A DNA stretch of 64,000 nucleotides from Persicimonas caeni (GCF_006517175.1 NZ_CP041186.1:1887001-1951000), one strand, 5' to 3'. Shown: positions 17,491 to 27,103, counted from the stretch's first letter. The notes: generated by a model from the sequence alone, not told the origin. Program-made: numbers and translations.

Positions 17491-17874
17491 CTAGCCGTGA
17501 CTGCAGAGCTTGCGGGCCACTTCGATGAAATCGGCCATGCTGCGGACTTCTTTGACCGCGTAGAGGCGAGCGATCCCGCGATGCAGATGGAGGTGGAAGA
17601 TACGCGACCGATCGGCGGGGTCGACGCCGTCGCGATGGCAGCGCATGCGAAACATCGCCTCATAGATGTCCGCCTCGGCGCCCCCGAAGGTCTGCCAGGT
17701 CAACTCGACACCAGTGGCGCCGAGGTCGACGTCCGGCGGCGTGGTCGGATCGGCCAGCGAGACGCATAACGCCCAGCGACACAGGTGGTTCCACTGGCGC
17801 AGCCCGGTGCGCCGCTTGAGCACGATCAGTTCGTGGCGGCCGCGCTCGGAGATGTGGATGCGGTCGATACTCAT
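17491..17874 (-). CDS. dndE: DNA phosphorothioation protein DndE
   Basis: This 127-residue protein is the last member of the Dnd DNA-modification set, which swaps a non-bridging backbone oxygen for sulfur. DndE binds nicked DNA in known systems. The family pattern is clear: HISERGRHELIVLKRRTGLR, then WNHLCRWALCVSLADPT, VELTWQTFGG and FHLHLHRGIARLYAVK. Its ATG overlaps the dndD stop (ATGA at 17871..17874), so translation is coupled. The length is near the usual 110-130 residues. With DndC and DndD it should form the modifying complex. Confidence 0.93.
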   Translation of the reverse strand: MSIDRIHISERGRHELIVLKRRTGLRQWNHLCRWALCVSLADPTTPPDVDLGATGVELTWQTFGGAEADIYEAMFRMRCHRDGVDPADRSRIFHLHLHRGIARLYAVKEVRSMADFIEVARKLCSHG

Positions 17875-19853
17875 GTGGCGAAATACCCCGGCTCGATGCG
17901 AGTGGCCTGCGCTTCGTGGTCGAAACGCAAGCGATAGGATCGACTGATCGACGGCTCGAGCAGCTCCAAGTGATCGTCGACGATCTCCTCGTCGGTGGAC
18001 AACAAGATGACCTGTCGGCCGGCGTGCGGGAAATACCGAGAGACGAGCAGCTTGCGGTGCTCGGAGTCGAGCCGGCCCAAGGGCGTGTCGATCATCGTGG
18101 GAAGCGAGCGTCTGGCGCTCTGGGCGAGGCCCCAGAGCATGCTGACGCTCAGGACCTGACGCTCGCCGGCCGACAACACCTCCGGAGAAAACCGCTTGCC
18201 GCTTCGCTCGATGAGCGTCAGTTCGAAGTCGTTGGGATCGATGCGCACCTCGGCGACCAGATCTTCCTTGCGCAGCAGGTCGCGAAAAGCAGTGGTGATG
18301 CGGTTCTCGAGGTTGGCGAGGTTGCGCTCGAGGATGGCCCGCCGGAACTGCGCCAGTCCGCTCTTGAGTCGATTGCTGACGATGAGCACCCGCGCCGAAT
18401 CCTCTGCCTCGAACTCCGAGGCCACGCGGTCGCGCAACAGGCGGTCGAGTTTCTGCTCCGCGGCGGCCAATTGCTTTTCGACACGTCCGCGAGTCTCTTC
18501 GAGTTCGCCGAGGCGTTGCTCGGCCTCCTCGAGGCGGCCGCGGGCGCGCTCGCGCTTTTCGAAGACATGACGGATCACCTCCTCGTCGGGCACACGCTGC
18601 AGGTGTCGCTCGCGTTGTTCGATTTTCAAGTCTAGCTTCTCGCAGGCCTCGAGCAGGCCGTCGATCTGACGATCACACGAGCTGAGCGCCCCGTTGACCA
18701 GCGCGCGCAGGTGCTCGACCAACGTGGCCGAGTCACCCACGATCGGGTCGACGGCCTGGCTACGTTCGACGCGCTCGCAGCGATCTTCGCCCAGATAACC
18801 GGCGACTTGCTCGAGCTGATTGCCTTCGAGGCCGCTGCGCTCGAGGAAGTCGAGCAACCGGGCATCCCGCGACTCTAGAAGCTCGGCCACCAGCGCCTGT
18901 GAGGCGGACTCGTACTCTGCCTCGGCCTGGACGAGGGTCTGCTCGACCAGGTCGCTGACCAGCGCCAGCGGCCCAAAACGCGCCGTCTCCGAGCGCAGCT
19001 CGTCCTCGTGGCTCTCGCGAGCAGCCTTCGCCTCGCTCAGCTTGGCTTCACTCTGGGCCCGCTGTTCGTACTCCTCACCGCCCTTGCGCCGAAACTCGGC
19101 GTCGACCTTGTCGTAGAAGTGCTGCAGCTTTCGAGTCGTCCCCCGAGCCTCCTCGATCTGGGCGTCCAGCTCGCCGAGCTCCTCGCGCGCCCCTTCGAGC
19201 ACGGCTTGCACGTCGCGCAGCGCCTGGTCGTCGTGGTCGTCGCCCAGGCTCTGGCGCGTCTTGCGCTCGAGCACCGCGAGGTCGTCGCTGAGTTGGTCGA
19301 CCAGTCCGACGCCCATCAGGTGGGTCAGCGCCGTCGTCAACATGGCGCGCGTCTGGCGGCTCTCGGTGAAACGACGCACATGCTCGCCGTCGAACAGAAA
19401 CAGCTCCGAGATGGCAAGCGGCATGATCTGCTCCAACTCGCTCGCCCAGCCCTCGGCCGCGTCGGCATCGAGCTTGCCGTCACGATAGATCTGCAGCTCT
19501 TCGTAGACCTTGGAGCCCATCGCCGACCACTTGCGCACCACACGCACCTGCTCGTCGCGCCCCAGTTGCTGGAACTCGAATTCGAGCTCGATGCGCGCCC
19601 CCTCGAAGGGGTTGGCGTGGCGGTGAATCGCCTCGCGCAGGTAGGCGTGGTACGAGCTCTGGTCACGCTCGGCGAGCCGCGCGCGCTTGCCGTAGAGCAC
19701 CAAGCGCACCGCGTCGAGGAGCGTGGTCTTGCCGGTGCCGTTGAGCCCGCCTACCAGCACGACCGGCCGCTCGGTTGATTCTGGCCGCAGATCGATCTCT
19801 TGGCGCCCGGCGTACACCCCGAAGTTTTCTAGCACAAGACGCTTGAACAGCAT
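17871..19853 (-). CDS. dndD: DNA phosphorothioation ATPase DndD (SMC/Rad50-like)
   Basis: This 660-residue ABC-type ATPase drives the DNA-facing step of phosphorothioate modification. Residues 33-46 (LVGGLNGTGKTTLL) are Walker A. A long coiled coil from about 200 to 520 resembles SMC/RecN proteins. The ABC signature is VLSAGERQVLSVSML and Walker B is LPTMIDTPLGRLD. ELFLFDGEHVRRF is characteristic of DndD. The start MLFKRLVLENFGVYAGRQ is the standard N terminus for this family. It lies 62 bp after dndC and overlaps dndE. All motifs needed for ATP hydrolysis are intact. Confidence 0.93.
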   Translation of the reverse strand: MLFKRLVLENFGVYAGRQEIDLRPESTERPVVLVGGLNGTGKTTLLDAVRLVLYGKRARLAERDQSSYHAYLREAIHRHANPFEGARIELEFEFQQLGRDEQVRVVRKWSAMGSKVYEELQIYRDGKLDADAAEGWASELEQIMPLAISELFLFDGEHVRRFTESRQTRAMLTTALTHLMGVGLVDQLSDDLAVLERKTRQSLGDDHDDQALRDVQAVLEGAREELGELDAQIEEARGTTRKLQHFYDKVDAEFRRKGGEEYEQRAQSEAKLSEAKAARESHEDELRSETARFGPLALVSDLVEQTLVQAEAEYESASQALVAELLESRDARLLDFLERSGLEGNQLEQVAGYLGEDRCERVERSQAVDPIVGDSATLVEHLRALVNGALSSCDRQIDGLLEACEKLDLKIEQRERHLQRVPDEEVIRHVFEKRERARGRLEEAEQRLGELEETRGRVEKQLAAAEQKLDRLLRDRVASEFEAEDSARVLIVSNRLKSGLAQFRRAILERNLANLENRITTAFRDLLRKEDLVAEVRIDPNDFELTLIERSGKRFSPEVLSAGERQVLSVSMLWGLAQSARRSLPTMIDTPLGRLDSEHRKLLVSRYFPHAGRQVILLSTDEEIVDDHLELLEPSISRSYRLRFDHEAQATRIEPGYFAT

Positions 19854-19915
19854 GGTAAAACAACCTTTGGGAAGGCAAATGCTCCCGGCTTGGCTCGGTT
19901 ACGGTCGCCGCGGCC

Positions 19916-21376
19916 TTAGAGACCGGAACCACCACCCGCGCCCGATACCGCATCGTTGGCCTGTTGTTCTCGGCGGCTGCGATCGATGGCTGCCTCATCG
20001 TTGCGAAAGTGCTCGCGAATCTTGGCGTCGAGCGCCTCGAACAGCCCTGCGCGGCGCACCATGGTTTGATGCCGATGCTCGACCTCGAAGAGCGAACGTA
20101 CCAAGTCGAAACACTCCGGGCAGTCGGGCATCGCCTGTCGCAGCAACTCGAGCTCCTCGCGATCAAAGGGGATCGCCGAATCGATCTGGCTGCCGGGGTA
20201 GGCTTCGCCCATCTCTTCTTGCCAGATCAACGGGAGGCGATCCTCGATTTCGTGCTTCTCGACGACCCAAATGCGTCGGATCTCCTCGAGATGCTCCAAA
20301 GTGATCAACTCGGCGTACTCGCTGGCTTGGCCCCCATGCTCCTGCAGCGCACGCTGGGTCTGCAGCACCCGCCGGAGCCAGTAGGCGCGGCCGTCTTGGT
20401 CGTAGCCGCCGCGCACCGGGTTTCCGCTGTGCAAAATGACCCGTCCTTTGTGGCGACTGAGCTCTCGGTGGAGATCGTCGCGCTCGCTGAGCTCATCGCG
20501 AAGCTCGAGCAGAGGGCGCATCCAACCGTAGCGCGGCTCGTTAGCGATCATCGCGCGCATCGACCGATCTTCGGAGACCACGGTGCACACCCAACAGCCG
20601 AATCGACTGTTGCCGCAACTGGGCATGGCCGTATCGGCCACCAAGGGGCACTCGTGGTCGGCCGAAGCTCCGCGGTAAAGGTCCAGAAGACGCTCGTTAT
20701 CAATGCCTGCAGGGTTGCGATCCTGGAGCAAGTGCAGCCAGACGTCGTCAGTCGTCCAGTTTTCGATGGGCGTGTAGAGCAAGGTGCCCGGAGAGCGATC
20801 GTAGAGGCGCAGCGCGCGTCCGCGACGAAGGTGATTGCGGCTCGTGAGTGCCTTCTCGCGTGCCGCGCTCTCTGCGGTGCGCGAGCCGAGCACCAAGATG
20901 ACCTCTTGGTTGCCCGCGATCTGATCGCGCAAAAACTGTTCGGTGGGGCGGATCTTGAGCCGGTCGGTGCACCACCGAAACCGGGGCCCGGGGGCGGGAT
21001 AGCCTCGTCCGATCAAGTTGACCCAAAAAGAATCGTCGACATGCGGCTCGAGAATATGAGTGCGCACCGGCAATTGGGAGGCCGCGGCGGCCTGCTGAAT
21101 CTCGAGCATCGCCTCGCCGACCCACTGGCGCACCACCGGGTTCTCGACTCCCGTATCCACCGAAATGACCTCGATGGGGTTGGTCAACTCCTCGGGGGAG
21201 AGGTCGCTCAACGCACTCCACACCAGCTGGAGCGTCGCCGTCGAGTCCTTGCCGCCGCTGTAGGCGATTACCCAAGTGCTCTGACGAGACAGATACAGAC
21301 GGCGAATTTCGCGGCGCAGGTTCTGGAGCACAGATTTATAACCGTCTGTAAAAACGCTTCGCTCCGAATTTTTCAT
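19916..21376 (-). CDS. dndC: DNA phosphorothioation sulfurtransferase DndC
   Basis: This 486-residue PAPS-reductase-like protein activates DNA with ATP and delivers sulfur. The PP-loop STWVIAYSGGKDSTATLQLV lies near residues 35-54. Cysteines at HECPLV and SCGNSRFGCWVC fit the Fe-S cluster ligands of DndC. GPRFRWCTDRLKIRP is the conserved nucleotide-side segment. I chose the ATG at 21376 (MKNSERSVFTDGYKSVL), because residues further upstream look like untranslated leader. It heads the dndC-dndD-dndE operon, divergent from dndA. DndB, the usual repressor, is not encoded next to it. Confidence 0.94.
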   Translation of the reverse strand: MKNSERSVFTDGYKSVLQNLRREIRRLYLSRQSTWVIAYSGGKDSTATLQLVWSALSDLSPEELTNPIEVISVDTGVENPVVRQWVGEAMLEIQQAAAASQLPVRTHILEPHVDDSFWVNLIGRGYPAPGPRFRWCTDRLKIRPTEQFLRDQIAGNQEVILVLGSRTAESAAREKALTSRNHLRRGRALRLYDRSPGTLLYTPIENWTTDDVWLHLLQDRNPAGIDNERLLDLYRGASADHECPLVADTAMPSCGNSRFGCWVCTVVSEDRSMRAMIANEPRYGWMRPLLELRDELSERDDLHRELSRHKGRVILHSGNPVRGGYDQDGRAYWLRRVLQTQRALQEHGGQASEYAELITLEHLEEIRRIWVVEKHEIEDRLPLIWQEEMGEAYPGSQIDSAIPFDREELELLRQAMPDCPECFDLVRSLFEVEHRHQTMVRRAGLFEALDAKIREHFRNDEAAIDRSRREQQANDAVSGAGGGSGL

Positions 21377-21798
21377 ACATCTACCTCGACCACCGAAAAC
21401 CGTCGGGAGACGTAATCTGCCACGACAGATTACAGTCTCACTGAAATTCACTTCTCATGCTCTATTACGCATCTAGCTCGTCCCCCGTTGTATTGGGTGT
21501 TCTCTAGCGTCTAATTTCCAGAAATACTGAAATATTACATCTATACTGAATCATAATCACAACAATGTCTTTTGAAAAGCTGCACCGCAGAACGCCAGCG
21601 ATCTCGAGGCGTCTCCCTCGCGAATTCCAGGGCAGACCGCCACCGTCCAAAACGGGCAGCTCGATTCTCCATATAAGAAATTTGCCTTGAAATGCTCCGC
21701 GTCGGGCAGATTCATCATCTCATTGAGAAGAAGGAGGGTACGCGCCTCCCGTTGTTCTTAAGTAACAACATCATTTCGCAACGGAGAAGTGTTTGGCT
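21377..21798. promoter_or_regulatory. Divergent dndC/dndA control region with two dyads
   Basis: This AT-rich 422-bp gap separates dndC (minus) from dndA (plus) and must hold both promoters. A perfect dyad GTAATCTG-N6-CAGATTAC spans 21412..21433, 36 bp from the dndC start. A different dyad, GTTGTT-N7-AACAAC, spans 21751..21769, 29 bp before the dndA ATG. Between them is a very AT-rich stretch (21520-21560). The dyads look like operators for dimeric regulators, or 5' UTR stems. No dndB-like regulator gene is nearby, so the regulator, if any, would be encoded elsewhere. GGAGAAG at 21783..21789 is the dndA ribosome site. Confidence 0.5.
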
Positions 21799-22959
21799 AT
21801 GGCGGATTATTCCAAGCTTGGAGACGTCGAGGCCATCTACCTCGACTGCAACGCATCGACCCCGATCGATCCACGAGTCGGTGAGGCGATGTACGAGATG
21901 CTGCATCGAAACCCAGCCAATCCAGCTGCCAAAGTGCATGTGTATGGACAGAAGGCGAGCCGCGCGGTGGAGGCGGCCCGCGAACAGGTCGCGCTCTTGG
22001 TGGAGGCCCGTCCCGAAGAAGTCGTCTTTACCAGCGGCGCATCCGAGAGTGACAACCTGGCCCTCCTGGGATGGGCCGAGCGCGCTCATCAGCAGGGCAC
22101 AACCCATATTGTGTCGAGTGCCATCGAGCATGCGGCTGTCCTCGAACCCCTGAGACATCTGCGCGATCGCGGCTTCGAAGTCGACCTGATCGCTCCGGGG
22201 CCGGATGGTGTCGTCGCCGCCCAAGATATTCTCGACGCCGTGCGCCCCGACACCGGGCTCGTCTCCTTGATGCACGTCAACAACGTGATCGGGACCATCC
22301 AACCGATCGCCCAGGTCGCTGAAGGGCTCGCTGATCACCCGGCTCTCTTTCATGTCGATGGTGCTCAGGGCGCAGCCCATCATTTTGATGAACTTGCCGA
22401 TCCACGCATCGATCTGATCAGCCTTAGCGCTCACAAGATGTACGGGCCGCCCGGCGTAGGGGCACTCGTATGCCGCCGCGGGCCGAAGGGCCCGCCGATC
22501 GCGCCGCGAAGCTTCGGCGGTGAGCAAGAATACGGATTGCGACCGGGCACCGTGCCGGCGCCGCTGGTGGTCGGCTTTGGTGAAGCGGCCAAACTGTGTC
22601 GGCGCGAGGTGTCCGAGCGATTGGAGAAAAATCACACTTTTCGTCAGTCTCTCCTCGAAGGACTGGCTCCTCTGTCACCAATCTTCCACGGCGACCTCGA
22701 CCGCCAGGTTTTGCACGCCGTTTGCCTTTCTATTCCCGGCGTGCGCCAAAAAGCAGCTCTACTGCGACTTCGCGATTTGATCGCAGCCTCGACCGGCTCG
22801 GCCTGTAGTGCCGTAAGCGATCGTCCCAACCATGTCTTGAGCGCTATGGGAGTGCCTCACAGCCACATCGAAGAGTCGCTGCGCATTTCCTGGTGTCATA
22901 CCACGCCTGCAGTTGACTGGAGTCAGGTCGTAGCGCGGTTGGCGCCGCTTGCAGAGTAG
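21799..22959 (+). CDS. dndA: Cysteine desulfurase DndA (IscS-like)
   Basis: This 386-residue PLP enzyme takes sulfur from cysteine and passes it to DndC, starting the phosphorothioate pathway. IYLDCNASTPIDPRV is the N-terminal mark of DndA/NifS enzymes. The PLP lysine is K213 in SLSAHKMYGPPGVG. The persulfide-carrying cysteine is C336 in STGSACSAV. The His that contacts PLP lies in SSAIEHAAVL. I chose the ATG at 21799, nine bases after GGAGAAG, rather than the TTG six bases upstream. It diverges from dndCDE, as dndA does in several Dnd clusters. Confidence 0.93.
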   Translation: MADYSKLGDVEAIYLDCNASTPIDPRVGEAMYEMLHRNPANPAAKVHVYGQKASRAVEAAREQVALLVEARPEEVVFTSGASESDNLALLGWAERAHQQGTTHIVSSAIEHAAVLEPLRHLRDRGFEVDLIAPGPDGVVAAQDILDAVRPDTGLVSLMHVNNVIGTIQPIAQVAEGLADHPALFHVDGAQGAAHHFDELADPRIDLISLSAHKMYGPPGVGALVCRRGPKGPPIAPRSFGGEQEYGLRPGTVPAPLVVGFGEAAKLCRREVSERLEKNHTFRQSLLEGLAPLSPIFHGDLDRQVLHAVCLSIPGVRQKAALLRLRDLIAASTGSACSAVSDRPNHVLSAMGVPHSHIEESLRISWCHTTPAVDWSQVVARLAPLAE

Positions 22960-23337
22960 GTCGCCGAACTCATGTCAAAATCCGAGAACTTTAATCGCCG
23001 GACCCACACTAAACCACAAATCACACTATACTCACTTTAGCGATAGCGCGACGCTCTATCATCGGAGAATACAGGGTCACACCCCCCTCGTGGGGCGTTC
23101 GAAGGCGTTCACAAATCCGAGCTATGTCGCCTCTGGCAGACAAGAACATCTTGACGCTCCACAACCCACAGCAACATACTCACTGAGCACAACGCGCTTT
23201 TCTTACAATTTATCGGGAGGAGCCGTTTCCTTAGTAAACTCTTGATTTTACTAACTAAACGCGCCCTCCACTCGACCACATGACCGTGATTTCGCGTAAA
23301 CCCCATTAATCACAGTATGTCGTGAGTGGAGTATTCC
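22960..23337. promoter_or_regulatory. Intergenic region with an 8-bp dyad upstream of the TPR gene
   Basis: I see no gene in this AT-rich stretch. A perfect dyad TTAGTAAA-N8-TTTACTAA spans 23231..23254, about 85 bp before the likely start of the TPR gene. It resembles an operator more than a terminator, since the stem is AT-rich and no T-run follows. It also forms the boundary between dndA and the TPR/ABC-phosphatase/Roadblock cassette, which suggests that the cassette has its own promoter. Confidence 0.4.
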
Positions 23338-25239
23338 GTGCTTGGTCGAGTAGTACGAGCAGGGACAGTGGAACAAAGACTCGCCGACATATACAGCGAG
23401 GGCTCTACAGCCTCTCGTCACGAGAGCTCTGCGCAGCTCGAGCGGCTTTCTCAGCAGCGCCGGAATACAACCGGCGACCCATCTGACTGGATCGCGCTGG
23501 CCAACCGTCTCGAAGATCAGGGGCGCGCCGACGAGGCCGCCGATGCGCTGGCTCGAGCCGCCGGCATCGATCTGCGACACGGCCAGTTCAACCTGGCCCT
23601 CGAACGGCTCCAACGCGCCATCGAATTGGCCCCCTCCCGAGCCGCTTCCCACTACGAACTCGCCAAGACTCATCACCAGCTGGGCCGCTTTGCCCAGGCC
23701 TTCGACGCCTATGGTCGAGCGTATGAGCACTTTTCTTCAACGCAGCGCCGCAAGCGCTCCAAGGAAGTACTCGAACGGATGATCCGCTTGAAACCTGACG
23801 ATATTGAGCTGCACCTCGAGCGAGCCCGTGGCCTCGAAGAGGACGGCGAATTCAAGGACGCTCTCGACATCTATCGCCAGTGCGCCGACGAGCTGGAGCG
23901 TTCAGGAAGCACGGAGGAGTTTCTCGAGCTCACCGAGCATATGCTCGAGCTTGCTCCCGACCAACCCCACCTTCGGGCCAGGGTCGTCGATGCCTTGCTC
24001 GCCGAAGCCGATGCCTTTTTGAACTACGGGCTCGAGGAGCGCGCGAAGCAAGACATCGAGCGCGCGCTGACGCACGCCCCCGACTCGCTCCACGCTCATA
24101 TTCGCCTGGTCCGACTGTATGAACGTCTGCGTCAGCCGATGGCGTTCATCGACAGCGTCACCCAGATGGCGCGCGCTGCCCAGGGGGGTCGCGCCCTGGC
24201 AGCCAAAGCGCTGCGACGTGCGCAGGAGTGGATGGGCAGCTCCGAGCGCATCGATGCCCTCGCCGACAAACTGGAGGTTGACTTGAGTGACGTATCCGAA
24301 GAGCTGCCGCCTCAATTGGATTCCGACAGCGAGAGCGAGTTGGGTGACGAGGAGACCGCCCCACGCGACCAGACCATGCCGGCGTTCGCCCGGGAGTCGA
24401 CGCGCAACCATGGCGTCATTTTGGGCGGCGCGGGTCGCGCGCACAACTTGCTGACGCTGCTTCAAGCCGTCGAGCGCAGCCAAGAGCCGTCGCAGTTGCT
24501 CATCGAAGACGGCGAGGGAAACCCGATCGCCGAGCTTCGCGCCCGTGACCGGCGCTTGGAGGTGGGCCTGCGCCTGGACGGCGAGATCTTCGTCGACCGG
24601 TCGCTCAAGCGGGTGAGCACCGATCTCGCCGATCGTCTGGCTGATTCGGGCGCCAATGCCGACGCCTGCCTGACCACCTCGAACACCACCACCGGAGAGC
24701 GCTCGCAATTGTACCGGCTCACCGCCCGCGGGCTGGTCGAACTGGCCACCCGCGCCGAGTCGCAGCACTTCTGTTTGCGCTCGCGCAGCATGGAGCCCGC
24801 CGAGCACGATCACCTCTCCTTTTCACCGTTCGCGCTGACGCTGCGCGCTGCCGGCTACATGCATAGCGACACGAGCAAAGTCGCCGCACACTTCTACGAC
24901 AAGATGGGTGAATCGAGCGAAGAGGCTTGGCTGCTGGTCGACCCGGAGGATGGCTCGAAGATGTGCTTGCCGCTTCGTAGCGTGTCGACCACGCCGCTCA
25001 CGATCGCCGAGTTGCGCAAGCTGGGAAGACGAAGCTTCGAGATCCTCGAGTACAACCGCAAGACCCGCGAGGCGCTGGGGAGCCAGGAGACCATGTCGAC
25101 CAGCTTCTCGATGAACGGAGGGCTGTGGTGCGCAGTCAGCAGCGGAGCCCACCTGGCCCTGGTGCGCGCCGAGATGCACAAAATGGGCGCGACCCTGTCA
25201 CAGGCACGCTCGGCCACCAACTCCGGAGGTGAAGCATGA
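23338..25239 (+). CDS. TPR protein with unusual C-terminal domain (first gene of a possible new cassette)
   Basis: This 633-residue soluble protein has tetratricopeptide repeats over roughly residues 45-300: WIALANRLEDQGRADEAADA, AASHYELAKTHHQLGRFAQA, ARGLEEDGEFKDALDIYRQC and others. An acidic linker follows. The last 270 residues contain ILGGAGRAHNLLTLLQAVER and a segment resembling PATAN/DUF4388-type signalling domains. The far C terminus (GGLWCAVSSGAHLALVRAEM) could be Roadblock-like. The start is uncertain: GTG at 23338 has a GGAG site seven bases before it, and GTG at 23326 is an alternative. Its stop overlaps the next gene's ATG, so the two are coupled. It probably acts as a scaffold or sensor. 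Confidence 0.75.
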   Translation: MLGRVVRAGTVEQRLADIYSEGSTASRHESSAQLERLSQQRRNTTGDPSDWIALANRLEDQGRADEAADALARAAGIDLRHGQFNLALERLQRAIELAPSRAASHYELAKTHHQLGRFAQAFDAYGRAYEHFSSTQRRKRSKEVLERMIRLKPDDIELHLERARGLEEDGEFKDALDIYRQCADELERSGSTEEFLELTEHMLELAPDQPHLRARVVDALLAEADAFLNYGLEERAKQDIERALTHAPDSLHAHIRLVRLYERLRQPMAFIDSVTQMARAAQGGRALAAKALRRAQEWMGSSERIDALADKLEVDLSDVSEELPPQLDSDSESELGDEETAPRDQTMPAFARESTRNHGVILGGAGRAHNLLTLLQAVERSQEPSQLLIEDGEGNPIAELRARDRRLEVGLRLDGEIFVDRSLKRVSTDLADRLADSGANADACLTTSNTTTGERSQLYRLTARGLVELATRAESQHFCLRSRSMEPAEHDHLSFSPFALTLRAAGYMHSDTSKVAAHFYDKMGESSEEAWLLVDPEDGSKMCLPLRSVSTTPLTIAELRKLGRRSFEILEYNRKTREALGSQETMSTSFSMNGGLWCAVSSGAHLALVRAEMHKMGATLSQARSATNSGGEA

Positions 25240-26552
25240 AGCCGGTGGCTACGATCAACAATCTGAGCGTGCGCTTTGGCACCAAGACCGTGCTCGACGG
25301 CGTCGAACTCGAAATCCTCCCCAACGAAGTGTTGGTGTTGATGGGACCGGGCGGCGCGGGCAAGTCGACGCTGCTTCGCACCATTTGTGGGCTGAACAGC
25401 CAACTGAGCCATTTTTTGGTCAGCGGCGAAGTGCGCTATCTCGACCAACCCATTCAGCTCGACATCCACTCGCCACGGGGGCTCAGCCCGGTGCTCGTCC
25501 AGCAAAAGCTGGCCCTGCTCGCTTCGACGGTCTTCGAGTACCTGGTGACCAACTTTCCGTGCCGCTCCGACTTCACTCGTCTGGAGTTGCGCGAGCAGCT
25601 CGAGCAGCGCCTGGATGACGCCGGCATGGGCGACCTGCCCGACGGGCTCGACACCCAGGTCACTGCGCTGAGCGCCGGCCAACGGGCGATCATCGGAATC
25701 TTGCGCGCCTGCCTGCCGATGCCGGCACTCGTGTGCATCGACGAGCCCACCGCCGGCATGGACGACGATCAGGCCCAGATGGTGCTCGACTATATCGACC
25801 GTCAGTCGGCCGAGCGCGCCGTGTTGCTGGTCACCCACAACCAGCGCCGCGCCCGCAACGTGGGCGACCGCACCGCGCTGCTCGCCGGCGGGCGCATCCA
25901 GGAGTGCCTGCCGACCGACAAATTCTTCGAGTCGCCCGAGACCGACGCGGCCCGCCATTATATCCGAACCGGAGGCTGCACGGTGCCCTCGCCCGACGCC
26001 GATCCCGAAGAGCTCGACCCCGCGTTCCGCGTCCCACAGGCCGCGGTGGTCAATCCGCCCAAGCGCGCCAAAGAGGGATTCATCTCGGCCCATCAAGGCC
26101 CCACGGGGTTCGATTGGTTGATCCCCGGCCAGCTCGGCGGCACGCCGCTCCCGGGCGTCAGCGGCCACATCGACCGCGATCTCGAGGCGCTCCAGCGCGT
26201 GGGCACGACCGCCTTGGTCACGCTGATGCTGACTAAGCTCCCCGCTGCCAAGATGCGCGAGTACGGCATCGAGAGCTTGCACTTTCCCATCGTCGATATG
26301 GAGGCGCCCGAGATGCTCGACGCCGCCGATCTTTGTCGCCTGGTCGACACGCGGCTGTCCGACGGAGGGACCGTCGTCATGCATTGCAAGGCGGGCATCG
26401 GGCGCACCGGCACCATGCTGGCCGCCTACCTCATTTGGAAGGGGCAGACGGCCGCCGAAGCCCTCGACGCGGTGCGCAGCGTCAACCCGCGGTGGGTTCA
26501 GTCGCAAACACAGGAAAAGTTTCTTGAAGAGTTCGAGCTCTGGCTCGACTAA
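25236..26552 (+). CDS. ABC ATPase fused to a dual-specificity/CDC14-like phosphatase
   Basis: This 438-residue two-domain protein is unusual. Residues 1-225 form a complete ABC ATPase: Walker A GPGGAGKST (37-45), a Q-loop with Q89/Q90, signature LSAGQ (145-149), Walker B ALVCIDEP and H-loop H201. It resembles PstB-like import ATPases, but no permease gene is nearby. Residues 300-438 form a protein-tyrosine/dual-specificity phosphatase: HCKAGIGRTG (H383, C384, R390) is the HCx5R site, and D354 in FPIVDMEAPE is the likely general acid. Both active sites look intact. It overlaps the TPR gene by ATGA. I know of no described protein with this exact pairing, so its role is open. Confidence 0.85.
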   Translation: MKPVATINNLSVRFGTKTVLDGVELEILPNEVLVLMGPGGAGKSTLLRTICGLNSQLSHFLVSGEVRYLDQPIQLDIHSPRGLSPVLVQQKLALLASTVFEYLVTNFPCRSDFTRLELREQLEQRLDDAGMGDLPDGLDTQVTALSAGQRAIIGILRACLPMPALVCIDEPTAGMDDDQAQMVLDYIDRQSAERAVLLVTHNQRRARNVGDRTALLAGGRIQECLPTDKFFESPETDAARHYIRTGGCTVPSPDADPEELDPAFRVPQAAVVNPPKRAKEGFISAHQGPTGFDWLIPGQLGGTPLPGVSGHIDRDLEALQRVGTTALVTLMLTKLPAAKMREYGIESLHFPIVDMEAPEMLDAADLCRLVDTRLSDGGTVVMHCKAGIGRTGTMLAAYLIWKGQTAAEALDAVRSVNPRWVQSQTQEKFLEEFELWLD

Positions 26553-26572
26553 CGGCACCGCCACGGTGTCAC

Positions 26573-26595
26573 GGAAGCTCGATGGTCGAGCTTCC
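26573..26595. terminator. Hairpin between the ABC-phosphatase and Roadblock genes
   Basis: GGAAGCTCGA-TGG-TCGAGCTTCC is a perfect 10-bp stem with a 3-base loop, 21 bp after the ABC-phosphatase stop and 33 bp before the next ATG. Only AATTTACT follows, so it may be a partial terminator, attenuator or mRNA-stability stem that sets the level of the Roadblock gene. Confidence 0.6.
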
Positions 26596-26627
26596 AATTT
26601 ACTACAACACCCGCAAGGAGTAGCAGT

Positions 26628-27032
26628 ATGTCACTTGATTCGGCTCTGCAGGCAGGCGTCAAAGAAATCCCGGAATGCGTCGCTGGCGGCTACGTCGACA
26701 TGTCCACGGGCATGTTGCTCGGCGTCAAAACCGTCGAGTCGCACCCCCAGGAGGTCCTCGACCTTGTCGCCGCGGCCACCGCTGACATGTTCCAGGGTAA
26801 GAACGTCTCGGCCATCGAGAGCATGTTCAAAAAGTCGCGTGGTCTCGAAGACGACGGTCACCACTACTTCCAAGAGATGATCGTTTTCAGCGACAACCTC
26901 ATCCACGTGTTCCAGCGCTGCAAAAAGAACACCGACCACGCCGTTGTATGGGTTTGCGGCAAGTCGGCCAACATGGGCATGGTGCTCACCAAGGCCCGCA
27001 TGAACCTCGCCGGCGTCGAAGACGCGCTGTAA
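26628..27032 (+). CDS. Roadblock/LC7-like protein, 134 aa
   Basis: This small soluble protein begins with an amphipathic helix (SLDSALQAGVKEIPEC). GGYVDMSTGMLLGVKTVE then resembles the first strands of Roadblock/LC7 domains. A long helix over the middle (LVAAATADMFQG) and the strand pattern LIHVFQRC...AVVWVCGKSANMGMVL complete the profilin-like fold expected of the family. Such proteins bind small GTPases or scaffold signalling complexes; here no GTPase gene is adjacent. A strong AAGGAG site precedes the ATG by eight bases, suggesting high expression. It is the third gene of the TPR/ABC-phosphatase cassette and ends in its own terminator. Confidence 0.7.
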   Translation: MSLDSALQAGVKEIPECVAGGYVDMSTGMLLGVKTVESHPQEVLDLVAAATADMFQGKNVSAIESMFKKSRGLEDDGHHYFQEMIVFSDNLIHVFQRCKKNTDHAVVWVCGKSANMGMVLTKARMNLAGVEDAL

Positions 27033-27058: not shown

Positions 27059-27103
27059 ATACCCCGCGCTGCGCCCTTCCGGGCCGCGCGGGGTATTTGT
27101 TTT
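27059..27103 (+). terminator. Rho-independent terminator after the Roadblock gene
   Basis: ATACCCCGCGC pairs with GCGCGGGGTAT across a loop of about 16 bases that itself can pair (GCCC...GGGC). TTGTTTT follows directly. It closes the TPR/ABC-phosphatase/Roadblock cassette. Confidence 0.85.

Follow-up and report, generated by a model that had tools for sequence, protein, structure and literature searches.

Bacterial roadblock proteins are known chiefly as regulators of small GTPases. In the Myxococcus MglA/MglB polarity system and the Streptomyces conservons, a roadblock protein serves as an NTPase regulator with links to two-component kinases; to our knowledge, neither an ABC ATPase nor a Cys-phosphatase is a component of either. 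Closest in gene content are the Group 3 MglA systems, which combine a receiver–wHTH protein, an MglA-type GTPase and one or two MglB/roadblock proteins (Wuichet and Søgaard-Andersen 2014, PMC4316618); the passage of that paper describing them mentions no ABC or phosphatase gene. Here we describe a locus of Persicimonas caeni in which one chain joins an ABC ATPase to a dual-specificity phosphatase (ABC–DSP) upstream of a 134-residue protein, h134, with a predicted roadblock fold. We propose, with slightly more conviction than doubt, that ABC–DSP is the core subunit of a conserved signalling module, in which an ABC switch, a DUSP23-like phosphatase and an h134 scaffold would carry out ATP-gated dephosphorylation.

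The window, meaning the whole 64,000-nucleotide stretch that was analysed, is part of a single-contig 8.05-Mb genome. The features discussed below are given by window coordinates and strand.

17491–17874, minus: dndE, above the equivalog cut-off
17871–19853, minus: dndD, above the equivalog cut-off
19916–21451, minus: dndC, above the equivalog cut-off
21793–22959, plus: DndA-like cysteine desulfurase, below the cut-off
23326–25239, plus: first operon gene, encoding the 637-aa TPR protein; the GTG start is uncertain (ORF, Pfam, relatives)
~24394–25236, plus: conserved unnamed C-terminal domain of the TPR protein, residues ~357–637 (relatives, fusions)
25236–26552, plus: ABC–DSP fusion protein, 438 aa (ORF call, Pfam, homologues, AlphaFold2 model)
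25236–25970, plus: ABC ATPase domain, residues 1–245 (Pfam ABC_tran, structure match, residue counts)
25344–25370, plus: Walker A, residues 37–45, including K43 (sequence motif)
25668–25682, plus: signature LSAGQ, residues 145–149 (sequence motif)
25728–25745, plus: Walker B, including D169/E170 (sequence motif)
25836–25838, plus: H-loop His, H201 (sequence motif)
25971–26096, plus: linker between the ABC and DSP domains (AlphaFold2 model, fused-set alignment)
26097–26549, plus: DUSP23-like dual-specificity phosphatase domain, residues 288–438 (Pfam, PDB matches, residue counts)
26295–26297, plus: general acid D354 (sequence motif)
26382–26405, plus: HCKAGIGR loop, H383-C384-x5-R390 (sequence motif)
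26628–27032, plus: h134, 134-aa roadblock/LC7-fold protein, 75 bp downstream of ABC–DSP (homologues, AlphaFold2, Foldseek)
27059–27103, plus: likely intrinsic terminator, perfect 11-bp stem ATACCCCGCGC/GCGCGGGGTAT followed by TTGTTTT (read directly)

The TPR gene, whose product carries its repeats at residues ~83–264, shares 4 bp with ABC–DSP, the stop codon of the one and the start codon of the other overlapping as ATGA. Given this overlap, the 75-bp gap before h134 and the GC-rich stem with its T-rich tail, the three genes appear to be co-transcribed, in a unit that probably excludes the alpha/beta-hydrolase and LysR genes past the stem. A terminator scan recovered part of the 27059–27103 stem, with a total of terminator-like sites equal to the shuffle mean. 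Close relatives repeat this gene order, with either the whole TPR protein or its C-terminal domain ahead of ABC–DSP and h134. That C-terminal domain was suspected by eye to be DUF4388, an identity for which Pfam gave no support. A Dnd (DNA phosphorothioation) locus adjoins the operon at 17491–22959. Relatives conserve the plus-strand frame, and we therefore interpret a long minus-strand ORF at 24894–26597 (567 aa) as a GC-rich shadow.

The first-pass annotation had claimed that a single protein carries both enzymes, and had named profile searches and structure prediction as checks. Both bear it out: 25236–26552 is one uninterrupted 438-aa plus-strand ORF matched by ABC_tran and phosphatase models in Pfam, and every residue that had been named (K43, Q90, LSAGQ 145–149, D169/E170, H201, D354 and H383-C384-x5-R390) falls where it was placed. 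The AlphaFold2 model, built from a 12-sequence alignment (mean pLDDT 87), comprises two confident domains, the phosphatase among them, with residues 257–280 disordered; its pTM of 0.58 leaves the placement of one domain against the other undefined. Full-length, single-frame homologues occur at 11 other loci of the same phylum (36–49% identity). A wider set, drawn from a species-genome scan seeded with h134, extends the fusion to ~55 loci in Myxococcota, beta- and gammaproteobacteria, with 37–352 residues between the ABC and DSP domains. Such recurrence excludes an assembly, sequencing or frameshift artefact as the source of the fusion. No ABC–DSP match was found in plasmids searched at E 1e-30. 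On structural re-ranking, single domains dominate the list, which ABC domains fill; a viral fold search was likewise dominated by single domains, with no two-domain match evident.

The second half of the protein is matched in Pfam by Tc-R-P (residues 302–404, 1.3e-23), PTP-SAK (7e-15) and DSPc (2.7e-10), and its closest relatives of solved structure by sequence are a bacterial DSP (PDB 25xa, 1.1e-25) and human DUSP23/VHZ (4erc/2img, 2.5e-15). The HCx5R loop, the general-acid Asp, the DSP-family sequence and the confidently modelled domain place it among the DUSP/PTP phosphatases. C384, R390 and D354 are conserved in 69/69 phosphatases and Q426 is invariant in the DSP domain family, which we read as strong selection on phosphatase chemistry.

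The first half matches ABC_tran over residues 20–173 (1.1e-20) and superposes on the nucleotide-binding domains (NBDs) of transporters with Z ~27 (PstB, MetN, ArtP). Walker A, the Q-loop (Q90), Walker B, the catalytic Glu, the H-loop and the ABC fold are all found, which assigns it to the NBD superfamily. The Walker A Lys, Walker B Asp-Glu and H-loop His are invariant in 54–55 of 54–55 fused proteins; judged by these counts and those of the phosphatase residues, the ABC and DSP active sites are both under selection. The signature motif behaves differently. LSGGQ is degenerate among the relatives, where its Ser is kept in 23 and its second Gly in 9 of ~54 proteins, and LSAGQ is found in the window protein alone among ~55. 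The earlier description of an intact ABC ATPase is thus right for this protein, in which every motif is present, but its signature cannot be extended to the family. Because the signature is degenerate in nearly all relatives and the ATP-binding residues are invariant, the ABC half resembles a switch that binds ATP rather than a transport motor. The degenerate signature argues against a classical power-stroke ATPase, and in the relatives the ABC part may neither hydrolyse ATP nor dimerise canonically. We read the pattern as strong selection for nucleotide binding, perhaps with slow hydrolysis, and take the classical two-site ATP sandwich to be weakly selected.

The same motifs bear on an alternative in which the ABC half, without hydrolysing nucleotide, acts as a sensor of it or as a scaffold and recruits the phosphatase with no ATP cycle. 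The degenerate LSGGQ would suit it, as would Walker A and B, whose invariance fits nucleotide binding. Moreover, the alphaproteobacterial ABC proteins, read directly, are without most of the helical subdomain (L082 9443–10690, L096 9405–10622, L105 9286–10533). However, an invariant E170 and H-loop His are hard to explain without hydrolysis. Three related loci (L058, L059, L060) encode tandem ABC domains, the second of which has lost Walker A; in L058 and L059 the first keeps Walker A and the second has, by eye, a signature-like LSSEQ, as if one composite site had been retained. We therefore regard a purely non-hydrolysing scaffold as unlikely, and retain the ATP-gated switch as our preferred reading.

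For the downstream partner, h134, Pfam and NCBIfam gave no assignment. Robl_LC7 (Pfam) matched none of 12 h134 members, one of which gave a weak match to the related-fold MAPKK1_Int (0.024). The AlphaFold2 model (pLDDT 82) has an alpha-beta2-alpha-beta3-alpha order, and its best Foldseek matches are Roadblock/LC7 proteins, namely 3kye, MglB and MglC (best E 1.6e-7, probability 1.00). We thus claim membership of the Roadblock/LC7 superfamily for the modelled h134 at the level of the fold only, since Pfam Robl_LC7 is unmatched by sequence. The protein is highly conserved, with 68–84% identity among the relatives aligned first and 60–80% across the 79 genome-scan loci.

The link between h134 and the phosphatase is strong, and is seen in adjacency, phylogenetic profile and fusion. 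Of 58 fully flanked loci (4 kb or more on either side), 51 have a family DSP no further than 500 bp from h134, and 54 have one within 8 kb. Across 377 Myxococcota genomes, h134 is present in 28, the DSP (at least 130 bits) in 27 and both in 25 (Fisher 1.5e-33, uncorrected for phylogeny). The divergence of ABC, DSP and h134 is correlated (r 0.63–0.71, with the shared species tree uncorrected), and label permutations never exceeded 0.27. In L124 (6555–8402), a dynamin-type GTPase, DSP and h134 are joined in a single 615-aa ORF. The P. caeni genome also carries a second h134 copy, 84% identical and without ABC–DSP (L047 8842–13361; C1 ~4855342–4859861). It is flanked on one side by the gene for a 286-aa TPR protein, which matches the profile of the window TPR C-terminal domain, and on the other by a PAS histidine kinase and a response regulator.

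The first-pass annotation had suggested the TPR protein as a possible partner. The 4-bp ATGA overlap and the fusion, in L058, L059 and L060, of its C-terminal domain in frame to ABC–ABC–DSP support this choice; the most conserved partner, h134, had been overlooked, as had the GTPases and dynamins of relatives. An MglA-like GTPase and a classical Robl_LC7-type roadblock protein occur together in 10 beta/gamma loci; in most of these the GTPase gene immediately precedes ABC–DSP and the roadblock gene follows h134 (by Pfam for L108). In 13 alphaproteobacterial loci, dynamin-family GTPases take the place of the MglA-like GTPase and the active DSP is a separate gene. There, the C-terminal region of the ABC protein matches the DSP profile without the HCx5R loop (E 2.6e-7 in L082, 5.6e-6 in L096), so that both proteins carry a pseudo-phosphatase tail. 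On a Ruegeria plasmid (pTHAF33_a, L145 5176–18248), four dynamin-family genes surround an h134 homologue (~40% identical), followed by Ser/Thr kinase, FHA and PP2C phosphatase genes. No consistent kinase neighbour emerged: a Ser/Thr kinase-like ORF is present in 6/79 loci, and the STPK–FHA–PP2C group on this one plasmid.

Other neighbours recur less often. A ferredoxin–FAD/NAD reductase gene lies near 19/79 loci, with a globin domain where tested. The fused ferredoxin–FAD/NAD reductase–globin protein of ~515 aa (L033 3854–5404, L105 13847–15397), whose gene adjoins h134 or lies close to it in loci of Myxococcota and of alpha-, beta- and gammaproteobacteria, is possibly a soluble flavohaemoglobin-like enzyme. 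In a Methylotenera MAG (L091 5333–11031), phoB and phoR, each scoring above an NCBIfam equivalog cut-off, flank the genes for ABC–DSP, h134 and the ferredoxin reductase; this insertion is single and is repeated nowhere else, and a Pho-regulon link is kept as a lead only. A two-component pair adjoining h134 in Comamonadaceae was not counted as independent evidence because the genomes are closely related.

In the proposed module, the core would consist of the roadblock-fold scaffold h134, a DUSP23-like phosphatase and an ABC switch that binds ATP, and the input would differ between lineages. It would come from the TPR protein here, from dynamin GTPases in alphaproteobacteria, from an MglA-type GTPase together with a classical roadblock protein in beta/gammaproteobacteria, and for some lineages from a two-component system or an electron carrier of the ferredoxin–reductase–globin type. 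We infer a physical complex in which ATP binding would bring the ABC domains to dimerise or to dock on the roadblock scaffold; this would position or uncover the flexibly tethered phosphatase, which would then dephosphorylate a phosphoprotein partner of the complex. ATP-dependent control of the phosphatase is the best reading of this anatomy, the gating itself being a guess from architecture. The lack of a consistently adjacent kinase counts against treating a phosphoprotein substrate as demonstrated. The ferredoxin–reductase–globin neighbour offers redox or gas sensing as a lead to the signal, and Methylacidiphilum is known to have a globin–roadblock protein (PMC4476040). In its broadest form, the proposal is of a widespread machine with a constant core of roadblock, ABC and DUSP-like phosphatase, in which the GTPase is swapped by lineage (MglA-type in beta/gamma, dynamin in alpha) and the alpha ABC protein keeps a pseudo-phosphatase tail, the active phosphatase being encoded separately. 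We hold this extension tentatively, at somewhat less than even confidence.

The genomic neighbourhood also raises the question of whether the operon belongs to an anti-phage or other conflict system. A patchy distribution (28/377 genomes), the adjoining Dnd locus, the weak likeness of the alpha-locus dynamins to LeoA/LeoBC and a nearest Pfam phosphatase family named from polymorphic toxin systems would all be in keeping with such a role. However, dndC and dndD are unmatched in the fetched related loci, where two dndA matches (L081, L116) are cysteine desulfurase-like, and PADLOC matches cover the ABC half alone (best mad3, 74 bits), with none for h134 or the TPR protein. Conflict proteins usually diverge fast, yet h134 is 60–80% identical across phyla, and its partners are signalling genes. 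A conflict role is thus improbable. A metabolic role is rated slightly lower again: the substrate of the phosphatase would be a small phosphate ester, the ABC half would sense ATP, and the roadblock association would be incidental. DSP-like folds do include small-molecule phosphatases, and the phoB/phoR setting in Methylotenera and the ferredoxin–FNR(–globin) neighbour of 19 loci could be read in this way, but that setting is seen once, and the co-occurrence, the GTPase/roadblock-domain fusions and the MglA-type partners indicate signalling.

PstB is the best NCBIfam match of the window protein (134 bits) and its model matches 11/12 members; kinship with PstB and phosphate import was dropped because, in a same-genome control, other ABC proteins score 130–158 bits against this model and the true PstB 387, which shows the score to be generic. 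A standard ABC-transporter ATPase whose phosphatase tail is regulatory, to which the canonical fold and the PstB match might point, is very improbable in view of this generic score, of the signature degenerate across the family and of the neighbours examined in the operon and related loci, among which no permease or binding-protein gene was recognised.

No description of a roadblock–ABC–phosphatase module was found in the literature searched, although a survey of the Rhodanese-phosphatase superfamily (Burroughs and Aravind 2023) may list the fusion. If our preferred reading of an ATP-gated signalling module holds, the ABC–phosphatase, as a constant roadblock partner, would couple GTPase switching, dephosphorylation and the state of ATP within a single complex. 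The unnamed h134, so well conserved across proteobacterial classes and Myxococcota, would gain a context as well, and the reading is open to direct testing in culturable strains such as Comamonas testosteroni and Delftia.

Each part of ABC–DSP has familiar counterparts. The ABC half shares its fold and ATP-binding motifs with transporter NBDs such as PstB, MetN and ArtP, but ABC–DSP has no membrane partner in view, a signature that is degenerate in the family and a fused phosphatase. The phosphatase half resembles DUSP23/VHZ and the archaeal and bacterial atypical DSPs (4erc, 2img, 25xa) over the whole domain, the N-terminal FxWxxPGxLxG stretch and the HCx5RTGTMLA loop included. Those enzymes stand alone, whereas the window domain is fused to an ABC domain, and where the VHZ motif IETYEQ has its Glu, Gln predominates here (Q422; 54 Gln, 13 Glu). 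The parallel in this genome to MglA/MglB and the conservons is the second copy, with its order TPR–h134–histidine kinase–response regulator. As in the Group 3 MglA systems as described, the beta/gamma relatives combine an MglA-like GTPase with a Robl_LC7 protein, here with h134 in addition, and a ~400-aa protein of L106/L108 may be the receiver–wHTH gene. The window locus itself is kept out of Group 3 because no GTPase gene adjoins its operon, and an MglA-type GTPase next to a roadblock gene is seen in the 10 beta/gamma relatives instead. In alphaproteobacteria, dynamins replace that GTPase. What sets the module apart from Group 3 MglA systems is its core, an ABC–phosphatase fusion with a distinct h134 roadblock family.
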